From Nevskia sp. (GTDB lineage Bacteria > Pseudomonadota > Gammaproteobacteria > Nevskiales > Nevskiaceae): a stretch of 35,083 bases of DNA. The stretch spans positions 2,688-37,770 of the forward strand of contig NZ_JAHFRY010000026.1 of the NCBI RefSeq assembly GCF_023266035.1. Reading direction: 5' to 3'. Below are positions 4,080-34,090 of the stretch, in pieces; positions within the stretch are counted from its first letter, which is position 1, and each line of letters begins with the position of its first letter. The position numbers and the translations under genes are program-made. The notes under the pieces were generated by a model. That model was not told the DNA's origin. It ran no database searches and saw nothing but the letters and a program-made list of their open reading frames with translations.

Positions 4080-4940
4080 ATGAAAAGCGTCTGCAGGGCC
4101 TTCGCGTGGAGCACCCTCATGCTGTTTCCAGTTCTGGGCCTCGCCCAGATGGAGTCCTCGGGGCTATTGAAGCCGAAACCCAAGCCGAAGCCGACGCCCG
4201 CCGTCAGCACCGTCCGCTGGCAGAACTACGGGAAGCTGACCTTGCCGGTGGACGCCAACAAGGATGGCGTAGCGGACGATATCCAGGCATCCGAGCTTGA
4301 TACCTACTCGTCGTCGTACTTCTATGCCACCAAGGCCGGCCAGAAGACTTCGGAAGGCTATTCAGCAGCCAATGGTGAAACCGTCTTCTGGGCTCCGGTC
4401 AACGGCGGCGGCAAGACCAAAAGCACCGACACGGTTCGCTCCGAGCTACGGGAGCAGCTGACCCTGGGCAAGGATGGCGACAACTGGTCGATTGAAGGAA
4501 CGCACATCCAGACCGGCACCGTCAGAGTCACCAAGCTGCCGAAAGCGAAAGTTTCCGGCGCGCCGGTCAAGACCATCGTCGCCCAGATCCACGTCTTCAA
4601 TTCCAATTCGCCGCCGCTGAAACTCCAGTTCTCGTCATCGAGCGCCGAAGGCACTGTCGTCTACGCCATCTACAACGATTCGCCGACGCGCAACGGCTAC
4701 AGCATCTCGCCGAAGATCAAAATGGCCCTGAAGGAATCGTTCACCTACGAGCTGAAGATGGCCGATGGCATCATGACCACCAAGGTCAACGGCCAACTTC
4801 TCAACACCCGGGACATGCGCGCGAACTGGAGCAATTCCAGGTTCTATTTCAAGGCCGGCAACTACGTGCAGAACACCACCAAGGAAGCGACCGGCAATGC
4901 TGAAGTCGTCTACTCGGCACTGACGGTCACGCATAACTGA
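4080..4940 (+). CDS. Secreted polysaccharide lyase family 7 (alginate lyase)
   Basis: Cleaves alginate by beta-elimination. The three PL7 signatures are present in order: RSELR at 120-124, QIH at 169-171 and YFKAGNYVQ at 256-264; the catalytic His and Tyr are expected at 171 and 262. In this family Ile in QIH is generally linked to activity on guluronate-containing alginate. A signal peptide of about 22 residues ends at LGLAQ. A KPKPKPKP stretch (31-38) follows, probably a stiff linker or surface-contact segment, and DANKDGVADD (58-67) resembles a calcium-binding loop. ATG 4080 has CAGGG nine bases upstream. The gene stands alone, with no transporter or DEH reductase nearby. Its end product would reach central metabolism as KDPG, the substrate of Eda in this window; that link is inference. 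Confidence 0.88.
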   Translation: MKSVCRAFAWSTLMLFPVLGLAQMESSGLLKPKPKPKPTPAVSTVRWQNYGKLTLPVDANKDGVADDIQASELDTYSSSYFYATKAGQKTSEGYSAANGETVFWAPVNGGGKTKSTDTVRSELREQLTLGKDGDNWSIEGTHIQTGTVRVTKLPKAKVSGAPVKTIVAQIHVFNSNSPPLKLQFSSSSAEGTVVYAIYNDSPTRNGYSISPKIKMALKESFTYELKMADGIMTTKVNGQLLNTRDMRANWSNSRFYFKAGNYVQNTTKEATGNAEVVYSALTVTHN

Positions 4941-6222: not shown

Positions 6223-6600
6223 TCATTCGACGACGGTGATCGCACCGTTCATGTCCTCGTGGCCTGCGCCACAGAAGACATCGCAGAGAAAATCAAAGCG
6301 GCCCACCTCCTGCGGCGTCAGCCGCAGATGGCTGACCTGACCCGGCACCATCGTGGCTCGCAGCTTCAGTTCCGGCGCGCTGAAGCCCATGACGATGTCC
6401 TCGGTGCTGAGTTCGATGTCCACCGTCTCCCCCTTCTTCAAGGTGAGCTGAGCCGGAATGAACTCGTAGCGTTTCGAGGAAACCTTGACCATCCGGATCT
6501 TCTGCACCGGGGGATCGCTGGCCCAGCCAGCAGTAAAGCCGAAGGCCCCGGCTGCGGCCACCAGCAGACCCGCCGCCACAGGCTGAATGGATCTTTTCAT
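6223..6600 (-). CDS. Exported cupredoxin, cytochrome c oxidase subunit II-like CuA domain
   Basis: A 125-residue protein with an N-terminal export segment (GLLVAAAGAFGFTAGWAS) and one cupredoxin fold. CDVFCGAGHEDM at residues 106-117 is the CuA-type CxxxCxxxHxxM metal-binding motif of COX subunit II and nitrous-oxide reductase. The upstream ligand position, usually His in a DVxHSF segment, is Met71 here (EDIVMGFSAPEL), so one standard CuA ligand is changed. There are no transmembrane hairpins like those of a real oxidase subunit and no oxidase genes nearby. It probably binds copper or carries electrons in the periplasm. ATG 6600 is 11 bases after the stop of the phosphoesterase gene, and the two form an operon. 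The longer open frame upstream of it overlaps that gene and is not coding. Confidence 0.88.
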   Translation of the reverse strand: MKRSIQPVAAGLLVAAAGAFGFTAGWASDPPVQKIRMVKVSSKRYEFIPAQLTLKKGETVDIELSTEDIVMGFSAPELKLRATMVPGQVSHLRLTPQEVGRFDFLCDVFCGAGHEDMNGAITVVE

Positions 6601-6611
6601 CGGCGTCTCCC

Positions 6612-7520
6612 TCAGGCCTTGACCGGCAGCTCGCTCAGCGAAGTGCCCTCGTGCCCGGCCTTCACTTCGCGGAAGCCCAGGCCCTTGTACGGGGCGGCTG
6701 AATCCCAGGGAATCGGGCCCTTCTTCGGCACCGACAGGGGCGCCGGCAGCGGCCACATCAGGCCTTGTGCGGAGTGGTGGGCGATGTGCCCCGTCATGTG
6801 GTGATTTTCCTGATGAATGTGCCCATAGAAGACGGTGACGTATTCGAACGGCAGCAGAAGGTCGACGGCCTTGCCGCCATCCGGAGTCGCCCAATCCCAG
6901 CTCGGCGCGAGGTCGAACAACGGCCGATGCGTGAGCACGACGATCTGCTGCTCCCGGTCCCGTCCGGCCAGATCGGCGGCGAGCCAGGCGAGCTGCGCTT
7001 CGCCGAGGTTGGCAGTCGGGTCGGAGACGTTGTCCAGCGCGATGAAATGCACGCCCTTGTGATCGAAGCTGTAATGGGTTTCGCCAAAAAACTCCCTGAA
7101 CGCCTTGCCATTGTCGAGCGCGGCATCGTGCTCGCCGGCCAGATAGCGGATGTTGCGGACGTTCAGCCCGGCGGCGATGTCGCGGAATTCGCTCATGCGC
7201 TGCCGACGCACGGCCGGGTCGTCGGTGGTCTGTATCAGATCGCCCGTGAAGACGATGAAATCCGGCGGCGTGGCGAGCGCATTGACCTCGGCTATCGCCT
7301 TCTTCAAGGTGCCCTCGAAATCGGGATTGACAGCCGGATTGCTGAAACCCCAGTGGGTGTCCGAAAGCTGGACGAAATAGAAGTCTTCCGCAGCTGCGGG
7401 CGGTTTCTTGCGAGCGGCGAATGCCGGGGTTCCGAACCCTGCCAATCCGGAGGCGAAAACCACGCCGCCGCCGTACCCTGTCAGCTTGATGAACTGCCGG
7501 CGATCCATTTTCTTCTGCAT
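6612..7520 (-). CDS. Tat-exported calcineurin-like metallophosphoesterase
   Basis: The N-terminus MDRRQFIKLTGYGGG is a twin-arginine signal, and a cleavage site is likely near AFA (33-35). Metal-site motifs follow in order: SDTH at 53-56, GD at 93-94, GEHD at 129-132, LTHRP at 196-200 and GHIHQ at 233-237. In the third motif the usual Asn of GNHD/E is Glu, so a bridging ligand is altered. The enzyme should hydrolyse a phosphoester outside the cytoplasm; the substrate is unknown. AGAGGA precedes ATG 7520 at good spacing; Met5 is a second choice. The Tat route suggests folding, possibly with metal, before export. It heads a two-gene operon with the cupredoxin and is divergent from the sigma factor gene, which suggests it belongs to that regulon. 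Confidence 0.9.
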   Translation of the reverse strand: MQKKMDRRQFIKLTGYGGGVVFASGLAGFGTPAFAARKKPPAAAEDFYFVQLSDTHWGFSNPAVNPDFEGTLKKAIAEVNALATPPDFIVFTGDLIQTTDDPAVRRQRMSEFRDIAAGLNVRNIRYLAGEHDAALDNGKAFREFFGETHYSFDHKGVHFIALDNVSDPTANLGEAQLAWLAADLAGRDREQQIVVLTHRPLFDLAPSWDWATPDGGKAVDLLLPFEYVTVFYGHIHQENHHMTGHIAHHSAQGLMWPLPAPLSVPKKGPIPWDSAAPYKGLGFREVKAGHEGTSLSELPVKA

Positions 7521-7688
7521 GTCGAATTCCTCTTTTCAAGTGAGAGCCATGTCCAGTGCGGACTGCCTGATGCATACCGTCGGCAGCGCAGGAATATTCC
7601 TGGCGAAATTTTTCGTCGCCGACGGAATAAACGGTCGGGACATGCGGTACTCGCTGCTTGGAATATCGGATCGTGGCGGAGTCTTTTC
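7521..7688. promoter_or_regulatory. Divergent control region with three GGAATA elements
   Basis: GGAATA occurs on the + strand at 7591-7596, 7624-7629 and 7660-7665. The first lies in the palindrome GGAATATTCC (7591-7600), so it also reads GGAATA on the minus strand towards the phosphoesterase gene. GGAAT/GGAAC is the usual -35 core of ECF sigma promoters, and CGTC at 7614-7617 lies 17 bases after the first copy, a fitting -10 position. This suggests autoregulation of the sigma operon and co-control of the divergent operon. GGAG at 7678-7681 is the sigma gene's ribosome site. Confidence 0.5.
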
Positions 7689-8231
7689 TTGATCGATGAC
7701 AGCGCTGCCGCCCGCTTTGCCGCCATGGCAGCGCCGCATCTCGACGCCGCTTACAACCTGGCCCGATGGCTCACACGCGATCCGCATGACGCCGACGACG
7801 TGGTGCAGGAGGCTTACCTGCGGGCGTTCCGCTTCTTCGACGGCTTTCGCGGCGGCGATGGCCGCGCCTGGCTGCTGACCATCGTCCGCAACACCTGCTA
7901 CAGCTGGCTCGAGCAGAACCGCTTTTCATCGATCCACGTGGAATACGACGATCGGCTCGACAGTCTTCATGACGACGACGAAGGCAGACCCATGCATCGA
8001 CTCGACCCCGAACAGCTGCTGCTGCAAGCAGGCCAGCAGCAACTGATCGAAACCGCCTTGCAGCAGCTGCCGATCGAGCACCGCGAGATCCTGGTGCTGC
8101 GTGAACTGGAGGAGCTGTCGTACCGGCAGATCAGCGAGATCGCAGGAATTCCGATGGGCACCGTGATGTCGAGACTGTCCCGGGCGCGGTTGCAGCTTCG
8201 GCGCAGCATCGAAGCGATGGAGCAACGATGA
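7689..8231 (+). CDS. RNA polymerase ECF sigma factor (RpoE-like)
   Basis: A 180-residue sigma-70 family extracytoplasmic-function factor. Region 2 contains DADDVVQEAYLRAFRFF (about residues 35-50), with GRAWLLTIVRNTCYSW after it. Region 4 contains LPIEHREILVLRELEELSY and the recognition helix GIPMGTVMSRLSRARLQL. TTG 7689 is taken as start because GGAG (7678-7681) is seven bases upstream and IDDSAAARF begins the conserved part; the open frame reaches much further upstream but there lies antisense to the phosphoesterase gene. The stop overlaps the anti-sigma start as ATGA, a typical coupled sigma/anti-sigma pair. The likely targets are its own promoter and the divergent metallophosphoesterase-cupredoxin operon. 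Confidence 0.93.
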   Translation: MIDDSAAARFAAMAAPHLDAAYNLARWLTRDPHDADDVVQEAYLRAFRFFDGFRGGDGRAWLLTIVRNTCYSWLEQNRFSSIHVEYDDRLDSLHDDDEGRPMHRLDPEQLLLQAGQQQLIETALQQLPIEHREILVLRELEELSYRQISEIAGIPMGTVMSRLSRARLQLRRSIEAMEQR

Positions 8232-9022
8232 AGACGATGAACTGTGACGAAGCGCAGGAACTGCTTTCCGCATTCAATGACGGCGAGCTCGATCTGACGC
8301 TCGGCCTGGCATTGGAGGCCCATCTCGAAAGCTGCCCGGACTGCCGGGCGGCCCATCGCTCTCAGCAGGAGCTGACGGCGGCGCTGCGGCACGGCGCGAC
8401 CTACTACCCGGCACCCGCGCTGTTGCGCGCGCGGCTGAATGCGCAACTACCAGGGAATCCGGAGCAGACCGCCCGGCAGATTCCGACGCTGCCCGACCGT
8501 CGTCGCCGCAGTTCCGTCTGGGCCACGGCGCTGGCCGCGGCGCTGGTCATCGGGGTTGGCGTCAATCTGGTGCTAATGAGCCTGCAGCGGCAGTCGGCGT
8601 TGACCGACGAAGTCGTTGCCGGCCATGTGCGCTCACTGATGGTGGCGCACCTCGACGACATCGTCTCGACCGATCAGCACACGGTCAAACCCTGGTTCAC
8701 CGGCAAGCTCGATTTCTCGCCTCCGGTTCACGATCTCGCCGCCGAAGGGTTTCCACTCGCCGGCGGACGCATCGACTACATCAACCACCGACCGGTGGCC
8801 GCGCTCGACTATCGCCGACGGCAGCACGTCATCAACCTGTTCGTCTGGCCTGTGCCGGATCGCAGGGCAACCTCACCCGAAACCAGCAAGCGTGCCGGCT
8901 ACAACATTGCCCGCTGGAGCATCGACGGTATGGACTACTGGGCCGTGTCCGATCTCAATGCAAGCGAATTGCTGGGTTTTGCCCAGCAGCTGCGGACCCT
9001 CGAAAGGCCGACCGGACCTTAG
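8228..9022 (+). CDS. Membrane-spanning zinc-finger anti-sigma factor
   Basis: A 264-residue partner of the ECF sigma factor. The N-terminal zinc-binding anti-sigma domain shows HLESCPDC (His32, Cys36, Cys39), the HxxxCxxC motif. One membrane helix lies at about 98-118. The periplasmic part contains TVKPWFTGKLDFSPPV and VINLFVWP, typical of a widespread group of proteobacterial transmembrane anti-sigma factors. ATG 8228 overlaps the sigma stop (ATGA), giving equal production of the pair. It should hold the sigma factor at the membrane until a periplasmic signal releases it. The signal cannot be read from the sequence; zinc/thiol or copper/oxidative stress is a guess based on the metal proteins next door. 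Confidence 0.9.
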   Translation: MKTMNCDEAQELLSAFNDGELDLTLGLALEAHLESCPDCRAAHRSQQELTAALRHGATYYPAPALLRARLNAQLPGNPEQTARQIPTLPDRRRRSSVWATALAAALVIGVGVNLVLMSLQRQSALTDEVVAGHVRSLMVAHLDDIVSTDQHTVKPWFTGKLDFSPPVHDLAAEGFPLAGGRIDYINHRPVAALDYRRRQHVINLFVWPVPDRRATSPETSKRAGYNIARWSIDGMDYWAVSDLNASELLGFAQQLRTLERPTGP

Positions 9023-9052: not shown

Positions 9053-9775
9053 CTACATGCCCGGCAGGAACCGCCCCGTCCGAGCGACGTAATCGCGGTA
9101 AGGCTCGCCCAGTTCGGCCTTCAGACCTTTTTCCTCGAAGTGCACGCCGATGAAGATGTAGATCGACATGCCGAGGCTGAACAGCAGATGGCTGCTGGTC
9201 ATCACCGGTGTCGCCCAGAAGGCGATGAAGATGCCGCTCATCATCGGATGGCGAATCCAGCGATAGAAGAAGTGCTCCTTGAACGCGATGGGCGTATAGC
9301 TGCGGCGTACCAGATTCAGCCAGACCTGACGCAGGCCGAACAGGTCGAAATGGTTGGTCAGGAAGGTGGAGATCAGCACGATCAGCCAGCCCAGCGCGGC
9401 CAGTGCGTACAGCGCCATCGCCAGCGTGGCGTTGTCGATCTGCCAGATCACACCCGGCAGCGGCTGCCAGTACAGGTAGGTGAGGATCAGCACGATGTTG
9501 GTCGCCAGCACATAGCTGCTGCGCTCGACCACCTGCGGCATGAAATGGGTCAGCCAGCGCTTGAAGCCGGGCCGGGCCATGACGCTGTGCTGGACGCCGA
9601 ACAGAGCGATCAGTCCGAGGTCGACGATCAGCGCTGTTGCCATCGGCCCAGGCTCGCCGCTGCTGACCGATTTCGGCACCACGACATCGTTCAGGAAGCC
9701 GATCAGATAGAGGAACACGGCGAAGAACAGGCTGTAGCAGACCACGCCGTAGACGAAGGACAGATAGCGGCTCAC
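9053..9775 (-). CDS. Membrane methyltransferase of the MddA (methanethiol S-methyltransferase)/NnrU type
   Basis: A 240-residue integral membrane protein with about five or six hydrophobic helices. FGVQHSVMARPGFKRW near residue 60, ERSSYVLATN near 85, DLFGLRQVWL near 145 and the cofactor-site-like RWIRHPMMSGIFIAFWATP near 175 all fit the isoprenylcysteine carboxyl-methyltransferase-like superfamily. They are closest, as far as I can recall, to MddA, which methylates methanethiol to dimethyl sulfide using S-adenosylmethionine. NnrU-like proteins share the fold, so the substrate is not certain. GTG 9775 is preceded by GGGAG at good spacing. It is convergent with the anti-sigma gene with only 30 bases between, and divergent from the SDR gene. 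Confidence 0.85.
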   Translation of the reverse strand: MSRYLSFVYGVVCYSLFFAVFLYLIGFLNDVVVPKSVSSGEPGPMATALIVDLGLIALFGVQHSVMARPGFKRWLTHFMPQVVERSSYVLATNIVLILTYLYWQPLPGVIWQIDNATLAMALYALAALGWLIVLISTFLTNHFDLFGLRQVWLNLVRRSYTPIAFKEHFFYRWIRHPMMSGIFIAFWATPVMTSSHLLFSLGMSIYIFIGVHFEEKGLKAELGEPYRDYVARTGRFLPGM

Positions 9776-26416: not shown

Positions 26417-28495
26417 TCATCGCTGCTGTCGTCGGCCGGCGATCCGGTTGATACGGGTCGCTACCGTCGACGCCAGCAGCGCATCGGCCGCCATTCCCGG
26501 CAGCCGGCGCCGCCAGTTCGGATGCTCGTCGATCGTCCCCGGCACGTTCGGCTGCTCGATGACGCCGAGCAGGTCCTCGGCCGGGATCAGGGCCAGCGGC
26601 GACGGCGTGGCGGCGACGAAGGCACAGGCGGCATCAACGACTCGTGACGGTTCATCGACCGCCGGCATCTCGCCCGTTGCGGCACCGGCATGGACGAAGG
26701 CCGCCCACAGCTTGCCGCGATCGATCTCGCGGCCGGCGCGGTCGCTGGCTTCGTCCTGGCCTTCGCCGTACAGCGCGAGCTGGGCACGCCAGTCGATGTC
26801 CCGCGCCGTCCACCAGCCGGCGACGGTGGCCAGATCGTGCGTGGTGGTCATCGAGACCACGTCCAGCGGCCAGCGCGCCGGCTCGATGAACAGGCCCCAG
26901 TCTCGCTCGAACCACAGCACCCGCATGCCGAGAATGCCGGCCGGGCTCATGCGCTGGCGGAAGCCATCGGGCACGGTGCCCATGTCCTCACCGATGATCA
27001 CGGCGCGGTGACGCCATGACTCCAGCGCGATCAGGCCGAACAGTGCTTCGATCGGATATTGCAGATAAGCGCCTTCGCGCGGCCCGGCGCCATCGGGCAC
27101 CAGCCACAAACGCCCGAGGCCGATGACGTGGTCGATGCGCAGGCCGCCGGCATGGCGCAGCTGCGCGCGCAGCAGTTCGAGGAACGGCGCATAGGCGCCA
27201 TCGATCAGGGCGCGCGGCGAATACGCGGTCAGACCCCAGCATTGGCCGAGCGCATTGAGCGCATCCGGCGGCGCGCCAACCGACAGACCCTGCAGGAAAT
27301 CCTGCGGCCGGCTCCAGCCGTGACTGCCGCCACCATCGGCACCCACCGCGAGATCGCTGATCAGGCCAATCGCCATGCCGCCGGCTTTCGCGGCAGTCTG
27401 CGCGCCCTTCAAGCCCAGATCGGCCAGCCATTGCAGACGCAGATGGAAGGCGACTTCGTCGGCCTGCGCATCGGCATACGCGGCGACTTCGGCGCTGAGC
27501 GGATCACGGAACGGCGCCGGCCAATCCTGCCAGTGCCACAGCGGTGGCGTCTGCGCGAGGAAGTGCGCCTGCAGCGCTTCGAAGCGAGCGTGATCGCGCA
27601 AGCTGGCACCGCCCTCGGCGATGAAGCGCGCGCAGTCCTCGCGCAACGTTTCCGGCAAGGCATCGAAACCGGCGAGCAGCACACGCGCCAGCCGCAGCCG
27701 GATGCGCGCAGCTGCTGGCCAGTCGACCAGTGGCTCGACTTCGAGACGAGCGCTTTCTTCGGTCAGACCTTCGGCAGCCAGTGCGGCATCGACGGCAGCA
27801 CGGCCGAACACTTCCGAAAGATCGACGTGCAGCGCATTCAGGAACAGACGGCTCGATGGCGAATACGGACTGAAGCGCTCGACATCGGCCGCAAACAGCG
27901 CATGCACCGGGCTGACTGCCAGCGCATCGGCACCGCGTTCGCCAAGGCTGCACGCGAAGCCCGCCAGGCCGGCATAACTGCCGATACCGCCATCGCCGGC
28001 CGAGCGCAGCGAGTAGATCTGCGCAGTCAGGCCCCAGAGTCGGCGCTCGCCGACCAGATCCTGCACGGTGAACGCAGACGGCGGCACCACGGCGAGCTGT
28101 ACTTGCTGGCCGTTGAGGCTCAGCGCGTGGTAGCCGATCGTGTCGAACGGGCCGATGTTGCAAACGCCGTACGTGTTGCAGTCAGCGCTGCCGGTCAGCG
28201 TCGCGCCACTTTCCAGAATCAGCGTGTAGGCACGCGCGGCTTGGTCAGCAAGGCGACCGACTTCGACGGTCTCGCCGGCCCGCACCACCAGCATCGGCGC
28301 CAGCCGCGCGTTGTCGTGTGCAGCGCTGAGCCGATGCAGTTCCCGAGCACAGGCTTGGTCATCGTCTACCTGATAGCCAAGCGCGCCGAGCACCGCCTGC
28401 AAGGTGGTGAGGCTGACTTCGCGATGCACGCCCTGCCAATCGATCCAGTGCGTCGCCAGACCGGCAGCGATGGCGAGTTCATGCAATGCGGACAT
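26417..28495 (-). CDS. malQ: 4-Alpha-glucanotransferase (amylomaltase)
   Basis: GH77 enzyme transferring maltodextrin segments between glucans and releasing glucose. The protein has 692 residues. It has an N-terminal extension of about 140 residues as in E. coli MalQ. The catalytic barrel shows VSPVHALFAADVERFSPYSP (195-212), nucleophile Asp455 in LRIDHVIGLGRLW, acid/base Glu503 in GEDMGTVP, and Asp554 in TTHDLATVAGWW. The C-terminal PGTIDEHPNWRR is also typical. ATG 28495 starts three bases after the glgX stop, and its ribosome site GGAG lies within the end of glgX, so it is the third gene of glgB-glgX-malQ. It would recycle the short dextrins left by GlgX and GlgP. A damaged partial copy lies at 23187-23373. 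Confidence 0.96.
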   Translation of the reverse strand: MSALHELAIAAGLATHWIDWQGVHREVSLTTLQAVLGALGYQVDDDQACARELHRLSAAHDNARLAPMLVVRAGETVEVGRLADQAARAYTLILESGATLTGSADCNTYGVCNIGPFDTIGYHALSLNGQQVQLAVVPPSAFTVQDLVGERRLWGLTAQIYSLRSAGDGGIGSYAGLAGFACSLGERGADALAVSPVHALFAADVERFSPYSPSSRLFLNALHVDLSEVFGRAAVDAALAAEGLTEESARLEVEPLVDWPAAARIRLRLARVLLAGFDALPETLREDCARFIAEGGASLRDHARFEALQAHFLAQTPPLWHWQDWPAPFRDPLSAEVAAYADAQADEVAFHLRLQWLADLGLKGAQTAAKAGGMAIGLISDLAVGADGGGSHGWSRPQDFLQGLSVGAPPDALNALGQCWGLTAYSPRALIDGAYAPFLELLRAQLRHAGGLRIDHVIGLGRLWLVPDGAGPREGAYLQYPIEALFGLIALESWRHRAVIIGEDMGTVPDGFRQRMSPAGILGMRVLWFERDWGLFIEPARWPLDVVSMTTTHDLATVAGWWTARDIDWRAQLALYGEGQDEASDRAGREIDRGKLWAAFVHAGAATGEMPAVDEPSRVVDAACAFVAATPSPLALIPAEDLLGVIEQPNVPGTIDEHPNWRRRLPGMAADALLASTVATRINRIAGRRQQR

Positions 28496-28498
28496 CGT

Positions 28499-30669
<2,171 letters not shown>

Positions 30670-30673
<4 letters not shown>

Positions 30674-32589
30674 GACTGGGCCACCAGCAGCAGACAGGCG
30701 AGCGGCGGAAGGCTCAAGGAGAGGCTGGCCGGCCAGCCGTGGCTGGGCCCGTCGAGCGCTACAAGATCGCCAACGTTGGCGACATCACTGCCGCCGTAGC
30801 GCGCGGCATCACTGTTCAAGCGCTCCTGCCAGACACCGGCTTTCGACACGCCGACGCGATAGCCATGCAGCACTCGCGGCGTGAAGTTGCAGACCATCAG
30901 CACGGCCGGCGCCGCGCCTGTCGGATCGAAGCGCAGCCAGGCGAAGACGCTGTTGACAGTGTCATCGACCACCACCCAGCGGAAGCCGCGCGGATCGCAG
31001 TCGCCACGATGCAGCGCCGGTTCACTGCGGTACAGCGCGTTGAGATCGCCGACCCAGCGCTGCAAGCCGGCCTTCTTCGGATCAGACAGTCCCGCCCAGT
31101 CCAGCTGGCTGTCGTGATTCCACTCGCGTTCCTGGGCGATCTCGCCGCCCATGAACAGCAGCTTCTTGCCCGGATACGCCCACATCAGCCCGTAGTAAGC
31201 GCGCAGGCCGGCGTGGCGTTGCCAGGCATCGCCGGGCAGCTTGGCGACCAGCGCCTTCTTCAGATGCACGACCTCGTCATGCGACAGCGGCAGCACGAAG
31301 GCTTCGGCATGCGCATAGGTCAGGCCGAAGGTGATGTCGGCGTGATGCCAGCGGCGCTGCGCAGGATCGCGCGCGAAGTACTGCAAGGTGTCGTGCATCC
31401 AGCCCATGTTCCACTTGTAAGCAAAGCCGAGGCCAGCAGCAGACGTGTCGGCAGTGACGCCGGGCCAGGAGGTCGATTCCTCGGCGATCACGATCGCGCC
31501 CGGGCAGCGCTCGGCGACCACGGCATTCAGTTCGCGGACGAAGGCGATCGCTTCGAGGTTCTCGCGGCCGCCGTGGACGTTCGGTATCCACTGGCCGGCC
31601 GGCCGCGAGTAATCCCGGTGCAGCATCGAGGCGACCGCGTCGACACGTAGTCCGTCGATGCCGTAATGCTCGATGAAGTGCAGCGCGCTGCCGATCAGGA
31701 AGCCACGCACCTCGTTGCGGCCGTAGTTGTAGATCAGCGTGTTCCAGTCCGGGTGATAGCCCTCGCGCGGGTCTTCGTGCTCGTAGAGCGCGGTGCCGTC
31801 GAAACGGCGCAGGCCGTGGCCATCGGCCGGGAAATGCGCTGGCACCCAGTCGAGAATCACGCCGAGGTCCGCGGCATGGCAGGCGGCGACGAAGCGGCCG
31901 AAGGCTTCCGGCGTGCCGTAGCGCGCGGTCGGCGCGTACAGGCTCAGCGGCTGATAACCCCAGCTGCCACCGAACGGATATTCCATCACCGGCATCAGCT
32001 CGATGTGGGTGAAGTTCAGCGAGGCGACGTAGGGCACCAGGCGCTCGGCAAGCTGATCCCAGTCCGGTGCTGGCCCGCTGCCGAAATCGTTGCGCTGCCA
32101 GGAACCGGCGTGGACTTCGTAGATCGCGATCGGCGCATCGCGGCGCTGGCGCTTGCCGCGGTCCGCCAGTGGCGCAACCGGCATTGACGCGGCTGCCACG
32201 ATCGAAGCCGTGCCTGGCGGCACTTCGGTCTGACGAGCGAACGGATCGGCCTTCAGCACGCGGGCGCCATCGCGGTCGATGACTTCGAACTGGTACAAGG
32301 CGCCGACTTCGAGACCGGCGATGAACAGTTCCCAGATGCCGGCCTCGGGCCGCAGCTGCATGACATGGGCGCGGCCGTCCCAGCCGTTGAAATCGCCGAC
32401 CACGGCAAGCTGCCGGGCATTCGGCGCCCAGACCGCGAAACGCACGCCCGGCAGTTCGTCGACGATCATCGGCTGCGCGCCCATGACCCGGCCGAGCTCA
32501 TGGTGGCGGCCTTCGGCGAACAGGTGCAGATCGAGTTCGCCGAGCAGTGGCGCGGGACATCGTGTCGGCGGGGTGACGGCTGGGCTCAT
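30670..32589 (-). CDS. glgB: 1,4-Alpha-glucan branching enzyme, short form without the N1 domain
   Basis: GH13 branching enzyme that makes the alpha-1,6 links of glycogen. At 639 residues it is about 90 shorter than E. coli GlgB (728): the first CBM48 motif [20 protein letters not shown] lies near residue 50, so the extra N1 domain is missing, as in the known short class. The catalytic residues are in [20 protein letters not shown] (nucleophile Asp), [11 protein letters not shown] (acid Glu) and [13 protein letters not shown] 32589 is the first start; no ribosome site precedes it, but a small open frame upstream ends on it (TGATG). It heads glgB-glgX-malQ and is divergent from glgC-glgA. Confidence 0.96.
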
Positions 32590-32789
32590 CAGTATTGGGA
32601 ATTCGGTGGGTCACGATGCGCCCGATGTTCACACGGCGGAACGGTGATCAGGGCCGGCAGCGGCGGCGATCGTCCATGGCATCGAATTCGCATGCATCGT
32701 GCCGTCGCACCACAGCGGTGCGCAGCCTGCAGCAAAGCCGCCAGCCCCAAAATGGCAATGGCCGTGATGAACGGCACCGTCAGCGTCAT
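32589..32789 (-). CDS. Possible 66-codon ORF ending on the glgB start codon
   Basis: A small frame in the glgB-glgC gap, beginning [23 protein letters not shown], a plausible signal peptide or membrane helix, followed by a Cys/Arg/Pro-rich tail without recognisable domains. Its TGA overlaps the ATG of glgB, and glgB lacks its own ribosome site, so coupling is conceivable. Its own start at 32789 has only a poor ribosome site, and the tail looks like non-coding GC-rich sequence, so it may be spurious. Confidence 0.3.
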
Positions 32790-32799
32790 CCGCGGCGGT

Positions 32800-32833
32800 C
32801 ATAATCCCAACACATGCAGAGGAGACAGCGTTC
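32800..32833 (+). promoter_or_regulatory. Candidate -10 element and ribosome site of glgC
   Basis: CATAAT (32800-32805) matches five of six bases of a sigma-70 -10 box and would start a transcript near 32812. I see no good -35 at 17 bases. GAGGAG (32819-32824) lies nine bases before TTG 32834 and supports that start. Confidence 0.4.
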
Positions 32834-34090
32834 TTGTCCACGCAGCCTGAAGTGCGTTTCGTCAGCCGCGCCACGCGCGAAACCCTGGCTCTGGTGATGG
32901 CCGGTGGCCGCGGTTCGCGGCTGATGCAACTGACCGCCAATACCGCCAAGCCGGCCGTGCCGTTCGGCGGCAAGTTCCGGATCATCGATTTCACCTTGTC
33001 GAACTGCATCAACAGCGGCGTGCGCCGGGTCGGCGTGCTGACCCAGTACAAGAGCCACGCGCTGATCCGTCATCTGCAGATGGGCTGGGGTTTCATGCGC
33101 GGCCAGTTCGGCGAGTTCGTGGAACTGCTGCCGGCCGAACAGCGCAGCGAAGGCATGAGCTGGTACACCGGCACGGCCGACGCGGTGTACCAGAACATTC
33201 CGTTCATCCGTGCCCACGAGCCGGCGCATGTGCTGATCCTGGCCGGCGATCACATCTACAAGATGGATTACGGCCCGATGCTGGCGCAGCACGTGGCCAC
33301 CGGCGCGCAGGTCACGGTCGGCTGTCTGGAAGTGCCGCTCAAGGATGCGACCGAGTTCGGCGTGATGACCATCGCCGAGGACAAGCGCATCGTCCGCTTC
33401 GACGAGAAGCCGAAGAATCCGCAGCCGATGCCCGGCAAGTCCGACGCCGCGCTGGCGAGCATGGGCATCTACGTGTTCGATGCCCGCTTCCTGCTCGACT
33501 TCCTCAACCGCGATGCCGGCGTCAGCGAATCCAGCCACGACTTCGGCCACGACATCATCCCCAAGGCGATTGCCGAAGCGGCGGTCTACGCCTATCCGTT
33601 CCGCGATCTCTACGACAGCAGCAAGCAAGGTTACTGGCGCGATGTCGGCACTGTCGACGCGTTCTGGCAGGCCAACCTGGAACTGACCGACGTGCTGCCG
33701 GAGCTGAACCTCTACGACCAGCGCTGGCCGATCTGGACGCACGCCGCCCAGCTGCCGCCGGCCAAGTTCATCCTCGACAAGCCGGGCGAGCGCGGCTACG
33801 CGGTCGATTCGATGGTCAGCGCCGGCTGCATCGTCGCCGGTGGTGAAGTGCGCAATTCGGTGCTGTTCAACAACAGCCGGGTCGAGACCGGCAGCAAGGT
33901 CAGCCAATCGGTCCTGCTGCCCGGCGTCACCGTCGGCCGCAATTGCGTGATCAACAAGGCCGTGATCGACGAAAACTGCGTGGTGCCGGACGGCACCTTG
34001 ATCGGCGAAAACAGCGGCGGCCCGGCCAGCTATTACCATGTGACCAAGACCGGCGTGACCCTGGTCACCAAGGAAATGCTGGAGTCCTGA
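32834..34090 (+). CDS. glgC: Glucose-1-phosphate adenylyltransferase (ADP-glucose pyrophosphorylase)
   Basis: Makes ADP-glucose from glucose-1-phosphate and ATP, the committed step of glycogen synthesis. The protein has 418 residues. The nucleotidyl-transfer loop [13 protein letters not shown] is near residue 23 and [15 protein letters not shown] follows with the activator-region Lys. [30 protein letters not shown] and the left-handed beta-helix C-terminus are all present. The start is TTG 32834 with GAGGAG nine bases upstream. It overlaps glgA by one base, giving a glgC-glgA operon. Allosteric control by glycolytic or Entner-Doudoroff intermediates is usual for the family but the effectors cannot be read here. 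Confidence 0.97.

Follow-up and report, generated by a model that had tools for sequence, protein, structure and literature searches.

Among the closest described counterparts of the locus analyzed here is the RpoE4 (EcfR4) system of Sinorhizobium meliloti, which belongs to group ECF26 of the extracytoplasmic function (ECF) sigma factors. RpoE4 drives the genes of a sulfite oxidase, a cytochrome c and a pseudoazurin (sorT-sorU-azu2) from a similar promoter (PMC6180224, PMC6527743, PMC3511301). A sulfite response and a similar promoter are also reported for Sinorhizobium RpoE1 and RpoE4 and Starkeya SigE, and preliminary data showed no such response for RpoE3 and RpoE6 (PMC3511301, PMC6527743). 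Another ECF/blue-copper locus of S. meliloti lies on pSymB, where SMb20593 and an amicyanin gene come after RpoE8 (ECF29; PMC6180224). Here, we examined a stretch of 35,083 nt from Nevskia sp. (assembly GCF_023266035.1, contig NZ_JAHFRY010000026.1; hereafter the window, whose numbering is used unless another locus, L plus a number, is named), which stems from a 4.5-Mb genome. As in the RpoE4 system, an ECF sigma factor and a membrane anti-sigma factor are encoded beside an exported enzyme and its putative carrier, and the −35 element GGAAT(A) is common to both; in contrast to the sulfite oxidase of S. meliloti, the enzyme in the window is a metallophosphoesterase-fold protein, in which GEHD replaces the usual GNHD motif.

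A first-pass annotation had proposed a sigma factor with a membrane zinc-finger anti-sigma factor facing a phosphoesterase-cupredoxin operon, and Pfam searches confirmed all four genes (Table 1). It had also called for a co-occurrence search, a negative outcome of which would have refuted it, and the pairing turned out to be conserved. Among 80 related loci (the top-ranking ones of at least 579 in phosphoesterase similarity, not an even sample, and found with patterns that did not include GEHD), 78 carry a cupredoxin on the same strand after the phosphoesterase, one of them fused to it and 77 separated from it by gaps of −17 to 26 bases, with a 4-base overlap of the two frames common among the latter. 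A sigma homolog is found in 71 and an anti-sigma homolog in 68 of the 80, and the complete divergent layout in 53, although some sigma matches are perhaps other ECF sigma factors, e.g., at cyanobacterial loci (34–39% identity, without an anti-sigma gene). In an even sample of 397 Pseudomonadota genomes, 21 including the window's own have a phosphoesterase relative at E ≤ 1e-30; a cupredoxin gene comes next in 20 of these, and sigma and anti-sigma genes lie within 1.5 kb in 18. The remaining three still have GGAATA-N16-[AG]GT ahead of the phosphoesterase, and two of these genomes encode a sigma homolog elsewhere. In a plasmid collection, 19 records have a sigma match, and in at least six of them, including Gemmatirosa, a phosphoesterase match lies no more than about 1.5 kb away. 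The earlier suggestion that the two metalloproteins act together is well supported.

The phosphoesterase scores well above the cut-off of PF00149 (Table 1) but lacks the canonical GN[HR][DE] motif with its Asn ligand, which is present in 43 of 44 readable PF00149 genes without GEHD. Rather than a local departure from textbook ligands, as first thought, GEHD is a trait of the family: it is found in 80 of 81 aligned proteins (the other has GEND), in 21/21 of the even sample and in 48/48 chosen rows of a broader set with Sinorhizobium, Phyllobacterium, Streptomyces and Mycobacteroides. The remaining metal ligands, D54, H56, D94, H131, H198, H234 and H236, are invariant in these 48 rows, and the twin arginines of the putative twin-arginine translocation (Tat) signal are nearly so (Arg7 in 80/81 and Arg8 in 81/81 aligned proteins). 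GEHD proteins occur in Pseudomonadota, Acidobacteriota, Myxococcota, Bdellovibrionota, Cyanobacteriota/Melainabacteria and Actinomycetota. The closest relative of the window's phosphoesterase among the loci fetched, with 77% identity, is encoded in a metagenome-assembled genome (MAG) of Hydrocarboniphaga.

Among solved structures, the top profile match is Rv0805 (E 8e-15), whose Asn97, the residue mutated in PDB 2hyo, aligns with Glu130; in the five of 44 alignments that were inspected, GEHD stands opposite GNHD or its N97A mutant. A Myxococcales MAG (L009) encodes the phosphoesterase and a CuA-like domain as a single 398-aa open reading frame, a fusion also resembled by L038, with one undetermined residue in frame. 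In an AlphaFold2 model of the L009 fusion (predicted local distance difference test score, pLDDT, 79.4; predicted TM-score, pTM, 0.67), the N-terminal part matches GpdQ (3d03; Z 23.9, root mean square deviation (rmsd) 3.0, 237 aligned residues) and Rv0805 (3ib7, Z 21.3, rmsd 6.2, 252 aligned; 2hyp, Z 19.7, rmsd 2.7, 207 aligned). Judged by this model, GpdQ and Rv0805 share the fold of the GEHD family at about 20% identity, together with all metal ligands but one. They differ from it in having GNHD in the alignments seen, whereas the GEHD family is marked by the Glu, the Tat-type motif and the carrier partner.

The C-terminal part of the same model superimposes on the CuA domains 6pty (Z 15.6) and 2cua (Z 15.4), in both cases with an rmsd of 1.2 over 94 aligned residues. 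The cupredoxin of the window, which begins with a hydrophobic stretch that we take as a signal sequence, matches the Thermus ba3 CuA domain (2cua) at E 4e-10 and shares its C-x3-C, His and Met ligands; the fold is shared by the fused relative. These Cys, Cys, His and Met residues, the ligand set of COX2, are unchanged in 79 of 79 aligned cupredoxins, window included. Unlike the Thermus domain, the protein stands alone and, like half of its relatives, has Met at the place of the first His: ‘DIVMGF’ of the window lies opposite Thermus ‘DVIHGF’, whose His we take to be the first CuA ligand. This Met, too, had been noted as a departure from textbook ligands but represents a natural dimorphism, with 39 Met, 39 His and one gap among the 79 proteins. 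Mapped onto the phosphoesterase tree, the Met/His label changes six times, four of them forced by well-supported branches.

Judging from the predicted proteins, the gene after a GEHD gene nearly always encodes a small electron carrier, and these carriers are of unrelated kinds: CuA-like, type-1 cupredoxin, HiPIP, Rieske and cytochrome c. The partner is CuA-like in 78 of the 80 loci. Type-1 cupredoxins are the partner in 17 of the 21 even-sample loci, the more distant part of the sample, and were confirmed by Pfam on all five that were scanned. A HiPIP takes this place in Methylotenera (L023; 28.3 bits, cut-off 22). In Acidobacteriota, the partner is CuA-like, type-1, Rieske or cytochrome c: L119 has a Rieske protein (48.7 bits, cut-off 20.3), as do L120 and L121 by pattern, the slot in L128 holds Haem_bd and cytochrome c by Pfam, and five further loci (L129, L130, L132–L134, with identical rows for L133 and L134) have a cytochrome c by pattern. 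In 10 of the 80 loci, a cytochrome c, again by pattern, is also encoded directly upstream of the phosphoesterase and in the same orientation. Eight of these ten have no motif at the phosphoesterase itself, and the conserved promoter precedes the upstream cytochrome c in seven loci, five of them among those eight.

Further arrangements were seen on plasmids. In Phyllobacterium and Sinorhizobium, the GEHD gene is flanked by a cupredoxin-like gene (our reading; Pfam gives only a carboxypeptidase-regulatory-like domain) and, downstream, by a cytochrome c gene, which Pfam assigns to the SoxA/TsdA type in Phyllobacterium. SCO and oxidase subunit genes are also close by, the oxidase adjoining in Phyllobacterium and lying about 6 kb off in S. 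meliloti, where soxYZ is in the vicinity as well. On a Mycobacteroides plasmid, the sigma gene is followed by those of a Rieske protein, a type-1 cupredoxin and the phosphoesterase, and on a Streptomyces plasmid, a cupredoxin gene precedes the phosphoesterase. Copper is not general to the module, because HiPIP, Rieske or cytochrome c proteins occupy the carrier slot in other lineages. What is common is a dedicated carrier encoded with the enzyme, as expected for a carrier-coupled periplasmic oxidoreductase in a SorT-like role.

As a control, the carrier patterns were applied to PF00149 genes without GEHD from ten of the Pseudomonadota genomes, which yielded 57 PF00149 matches, nine of them with GEHD; the control set comprised 45 of the remaining 48. 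A carrier lies within 700 bases downstream at 40 of 43 GEHD loci, 22 of which are from Acidobacteriota and Cyanobacteriota, compared to none of the 45 controls (Fisher 6.7e-22, a descriptive value because the patterns were post hoc and related genomes are not independent, their shared ancestry being uncorrected). Two controls (L163 and L166, the latter without a readable open reading frame) show the carrier pattern upstream. Four loci with GEHD were left out of the 43: L136, L138 and L140, which have split or truncated genes and are followed by a carrier, and L117, a fusion that was mis-parsed.

Three GGAATA elements, one of them palindromic, had been noted between the operons. All are present, including the one that reads in both directions (AGGAATATTCCT, 7591–7600), but just two look like promoters, with GGTA at a distance of 16 bases (Table 1); the third was rejected since a −10 element is absent at this spacing. 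Within 200 bases upstream of the phosphoesterase, 54 of 80 loci carry GGAATA-N16-[AG]GT[ACT], as do 50 of 71 upstream of the sigma gene. All other spacings between 10 and 24 gave only 0–1 matches each before the phosphoesterase and 0–2 before the sigma gene, and shuffled sequences gave averages of 0.06 and 0.03, respectively. The count varies with the pattern, as GGAAT[AT] and a longer stretch raise the phosphoesterase figure to 60/80. In the even sample, 14 of 21 loci have a slightly looser form of the motif ahead of the phosphoesterase, and six of the remaining seven belong to one family-level lineage. With one extra fixed base, the motif has 98 matches at the two expected places across all loci and 24 further matches elsewhere ahead of frames of at least 60 codons, compared to only two for the reversed motif.

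In the whole genome, GGAATA-N16-RGTH has nine matches and its reversed control six, which gives no support for a wide regulon in this organism. Two of the nine are the predicted promoters of the window and another falls within the sigma gene, around position 7940; among the six outside the window, four overlap long frames, one precedes a doubtful 67-codon frame and one precedes nothing. Downstream of one of these four (L203), at a distance of 220 bases, is a frame that plausibly encodes a membrane protein. That two divergent matches share a single short gap is unlikely to be due to chance, and the conservation across loci is stronger promoter evidence than the genome count.

Further copies of the motif and of the module were observed at other loci. 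In Sulfuriferula (L007, 3867, minus strand), the motif lies ahead of what we read as an exported DsrE-like protein, a further sulfur hint. In L078, three more GGAATA-N16 motifs (1329, 1767 and 3815, plus strand) each lie upstream of a related small protein with a signal-like start. L024 harbors a second divergent module (592–2233), in which the GGAATA motif is followed by a type-1 cupredoxin-like gene, as read from the sequence, and then by another phosphoesterase homolog with 33% identity.

The promoter sequence resembles that of ECF26 sigma factors. GGAATA-N16-RGT agrees with the ECF26 consensus (−35 GGAATA, −10 GT) as printed in PMC6180224; the −10 element, mostly GGT(A/T/C) across loci, differs from CGTC of the RpoE4 system and other sulfite promoters. 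The sigma protein consists of sigma2 and sigma4 domains only and is adjoined by a zf-HC2 anti-sigma gene whose frame shares 4 bp with its own, an arrangement typical of an ECF/zf-HC2 pair. Its top NCBIfam match is PRK12533 with 225 bits, under the cut-off of 248. In a sequence comparison with the ECF26 factors RpoE1/3/4/6, it shares 39% identity with the RpoE6 candidate on pSymA, over 137 residues. The anti-sigma factor combines zf-HC2 with one apparent transmembrane segment and a C-terminal domain, both read from sequence, and its profile similarity in this comparison is confined to the N-terminus. In L174 (1173–2419), the sigma gene is overlapped at the anti-sigma position by a gene for a Rieske-domain protein with an apparent transmembrane segment, possibly a redox-sensing anti-sigma factor.

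Features of the locus are compiled in Table 1. The TTG at 7689 is our choice of sigma start and gives the 180-residue protein used throughout; signal sequences, the Tat motif and the transmembrane segment were assigned by eye.

Table 1. Genes, ligand codons and promoter elements of the sigma/phosphoesterase locus in the window.
Feature	Position	Strand	Evidence
CuA-like cupredoxin gene, 125 aa	6223..6600	-	Pfam Cupredoxin_1 41.3 bits, COX2 26.4 bits
Copper-ligand motif, codons of Cys106-x3-Cys110-x3-His114-x2-Met117	6250..6285	-	invariant in alignment
Met71 codon, place of first CuA histidine	6388..6390	-	alignment with Thermus CuA
Metallophosphoesterase-fold gene, 302 aa, N-terminal Tat-type motif	6612..7520	-	PF00149 Metallophos 43.7 bits (cut-off 21.5)
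GEHD codons, residues 129-132 (Glu130 for Asn of GNHD)	7125..7136	-	alignment
Predicted phosphoesterase-cupredoxin promoter, GGAATA-N16-GGTA	7575..7600 (GGAATA 7600-7595, GGTA 7578-7575)	-	sequence, conserved spacing
Predicted sigma/anti-sigma promoter, GGAATA-N16-GGTA	7624..7649 (GGAATA 7624-7629, GGTA 7646-7649)	+	sequence, conserved spacing
Third GGAATA, without -10 at conserved distance; probably no promoter	7660..7665	+	sequence, motif scan
ECF sigma gene, 180 aa, probable TTG start at 7689	7689..8231	+	Pfam Sigma70_r2, r4_2
Anti-sigma gene, 264 aa	8228..9022	+	Pfam zf-HC2 41.9 bits

Several other genes of the window were noted. A gene for MddA, a methanethiol S-methyltransferase (9053–9775, minus strand; 302.1 bits, cut-off 270), is convergent to the anti-sigma gene; this sulfur gene was found near the module in none of the 80 related loci. 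An alginate lyase family protein is encoded at 4080–4940 (plus strand; 138.1 bits), and a 4-alpha-glucanotransferase, two CBM48/alpha-amylase-type proteins and a nucleotidyl transferase at 26420–34087 look like a glycogen-metabolism cluster.

The gene pairings strongly support a coupling of the GEHD protein to an electron carrier, and the swap of the carrier with the pairing kept suggests redox chemistry by the GEHD enzyme. We therefore favor, with somewhat more confidence than doubt, a self-regulating, sigma-controlled periplasmic redox module in which the phosphoesterase-fold dimetal protein exchanges electrons with the carrier. Upon a periplasmic signal, the anti-sigma factor would free the sigma factor, which would act at the divergent GGAATA-N16-GGTA promoters of both operons. 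The usual cargo of the Tat pathway is a folded, metal-loaded protein, and the enzyme would be exported in the folded state, already loaded with its metals (probably iron or manganese). Its second metal site, with Asp/Glu/His/His instead of Asp/Asn/His/His, may be redox-active, as this ligand set resembles that of redox diiron sites, and would give electrons to, or receive them from, the carrier, which in turn would connect to the respiratory chain. As for the substrate, reduced sulfur compounds, sulfite among them, and oxidants would be the first candidates. The sulfur link is a lead only, which comes from the sulfite-responsive sigma factors with similar promoters and from the soxYZ and SoxA/TsdA-type neighbors in rhizobia. 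As a wider proposal, which we put forward tentatively and hold to be not quite an even chance, the GEHD proteins would form a new class of periplasmic oxidoreductases on the metallophosphoesterase fold, in which the change from Asn to Glu made a hydrolytic dimetal site diiron-like and redox-active, served by interchangeable high-potential carriers.

The main rival is a redox-gated phospho- or sulfo-ester hydrolase, with a mixed-valent iron centre active in one oxidation state that is set by the carrier, so that its activity would track the periplasmic redox poise. We regard it as unlikely, though deserving serious attention: the closest solved structures are of proteins with phosphodiesterase or purple acid phosphatase annotations, purple acid phosphatases are redox-sensitive, and the remaining metal ligands are kept throughout the chosen rows. 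However, such a hydrolase has no obvious need for a dedicated carrier in most operons, or for two in some, nor for the oxidase nearby in rhizobia. That the pair builds or repairs a copper centre or terminal oxidase, with the cupredoxin carrying copper, appears highly improbable. The CuA-like fold of the partner and the SCO and oxidase genes close to the rhizobial homolog would fit such a role, but the HiPIP, Rieske and cytochrome c partners of other lineages are ill-suited to copper delivery. Since non-homologous carriers replace one another, the conserved property would be the ability to transfer electrons rather than copper binding, which weighs against metal delivery. It is also very improbable that two unrelated stress proteins merely share a regulon, a view near the envelope-stress reading of the first-pass annotation. 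Although the common promoter and sigma factor would account for their co-location, the fusion in L009 and the replacement of the carrier type argue against it, as do the regions viewed in Streptomyces and rhizobia, where the carrier pairing has no such sigma gene alongside, and that in Mycobacteroides, where the pairing stands beside a different sigma factor.

Several observations weigh against the redox module that we favor. The retention of all remaining ligands for hydrolysis makes a hydrolase possible. The carrier patterns were written after the carriers had been seen, although the same patterns were used on the controls. Three GEHD loci depart from the expected carrier position: L088, from the even sample, has a TPR gene in the carrier slot, and of two loci from the Acidobacteriota and Cyanobacteriota part, L139 misses the downstream test with its cytochrome c one gene further, and L172 misses it with a type-1 cupredoxin pattern upstream instead. 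Eight of the 80 loci have neither sigma nor anti-sigma gene; in five of these, one side spans less than 2 kb or less than 600 bases, but the other three, L009, L020 and L059, lack both genes despite at least 2.7 kb on either side. Relatives are also rare, being found in 18 of 199 genomes of Acidobacteriota, two of 146 of the cyanobacterial phylum and one of 188 of the myxococcal phylum, the latter being that of L009 itself.

Our literature search recognized no paper that describes the pairing of GEHD proteins with carriers, and neither PMC3420878 nor PMC8103513 contained any of the terms looked for; the group table of the 2021 ECF re-classification, which possibly lists the neighborhood, was outside this search. 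If the redox reading is true, a large superfamily annotated as phosphoesterases would hold a redox branch that is recognizable by a single residue, the Glu of GEHD. The natural Met/His dimorphism at the CuA ligand position would offer paired natural variants for copper biochemistry, and a recurrent sigma/anti-sigma system would gain concrete targets, an enzyme and its carrier.

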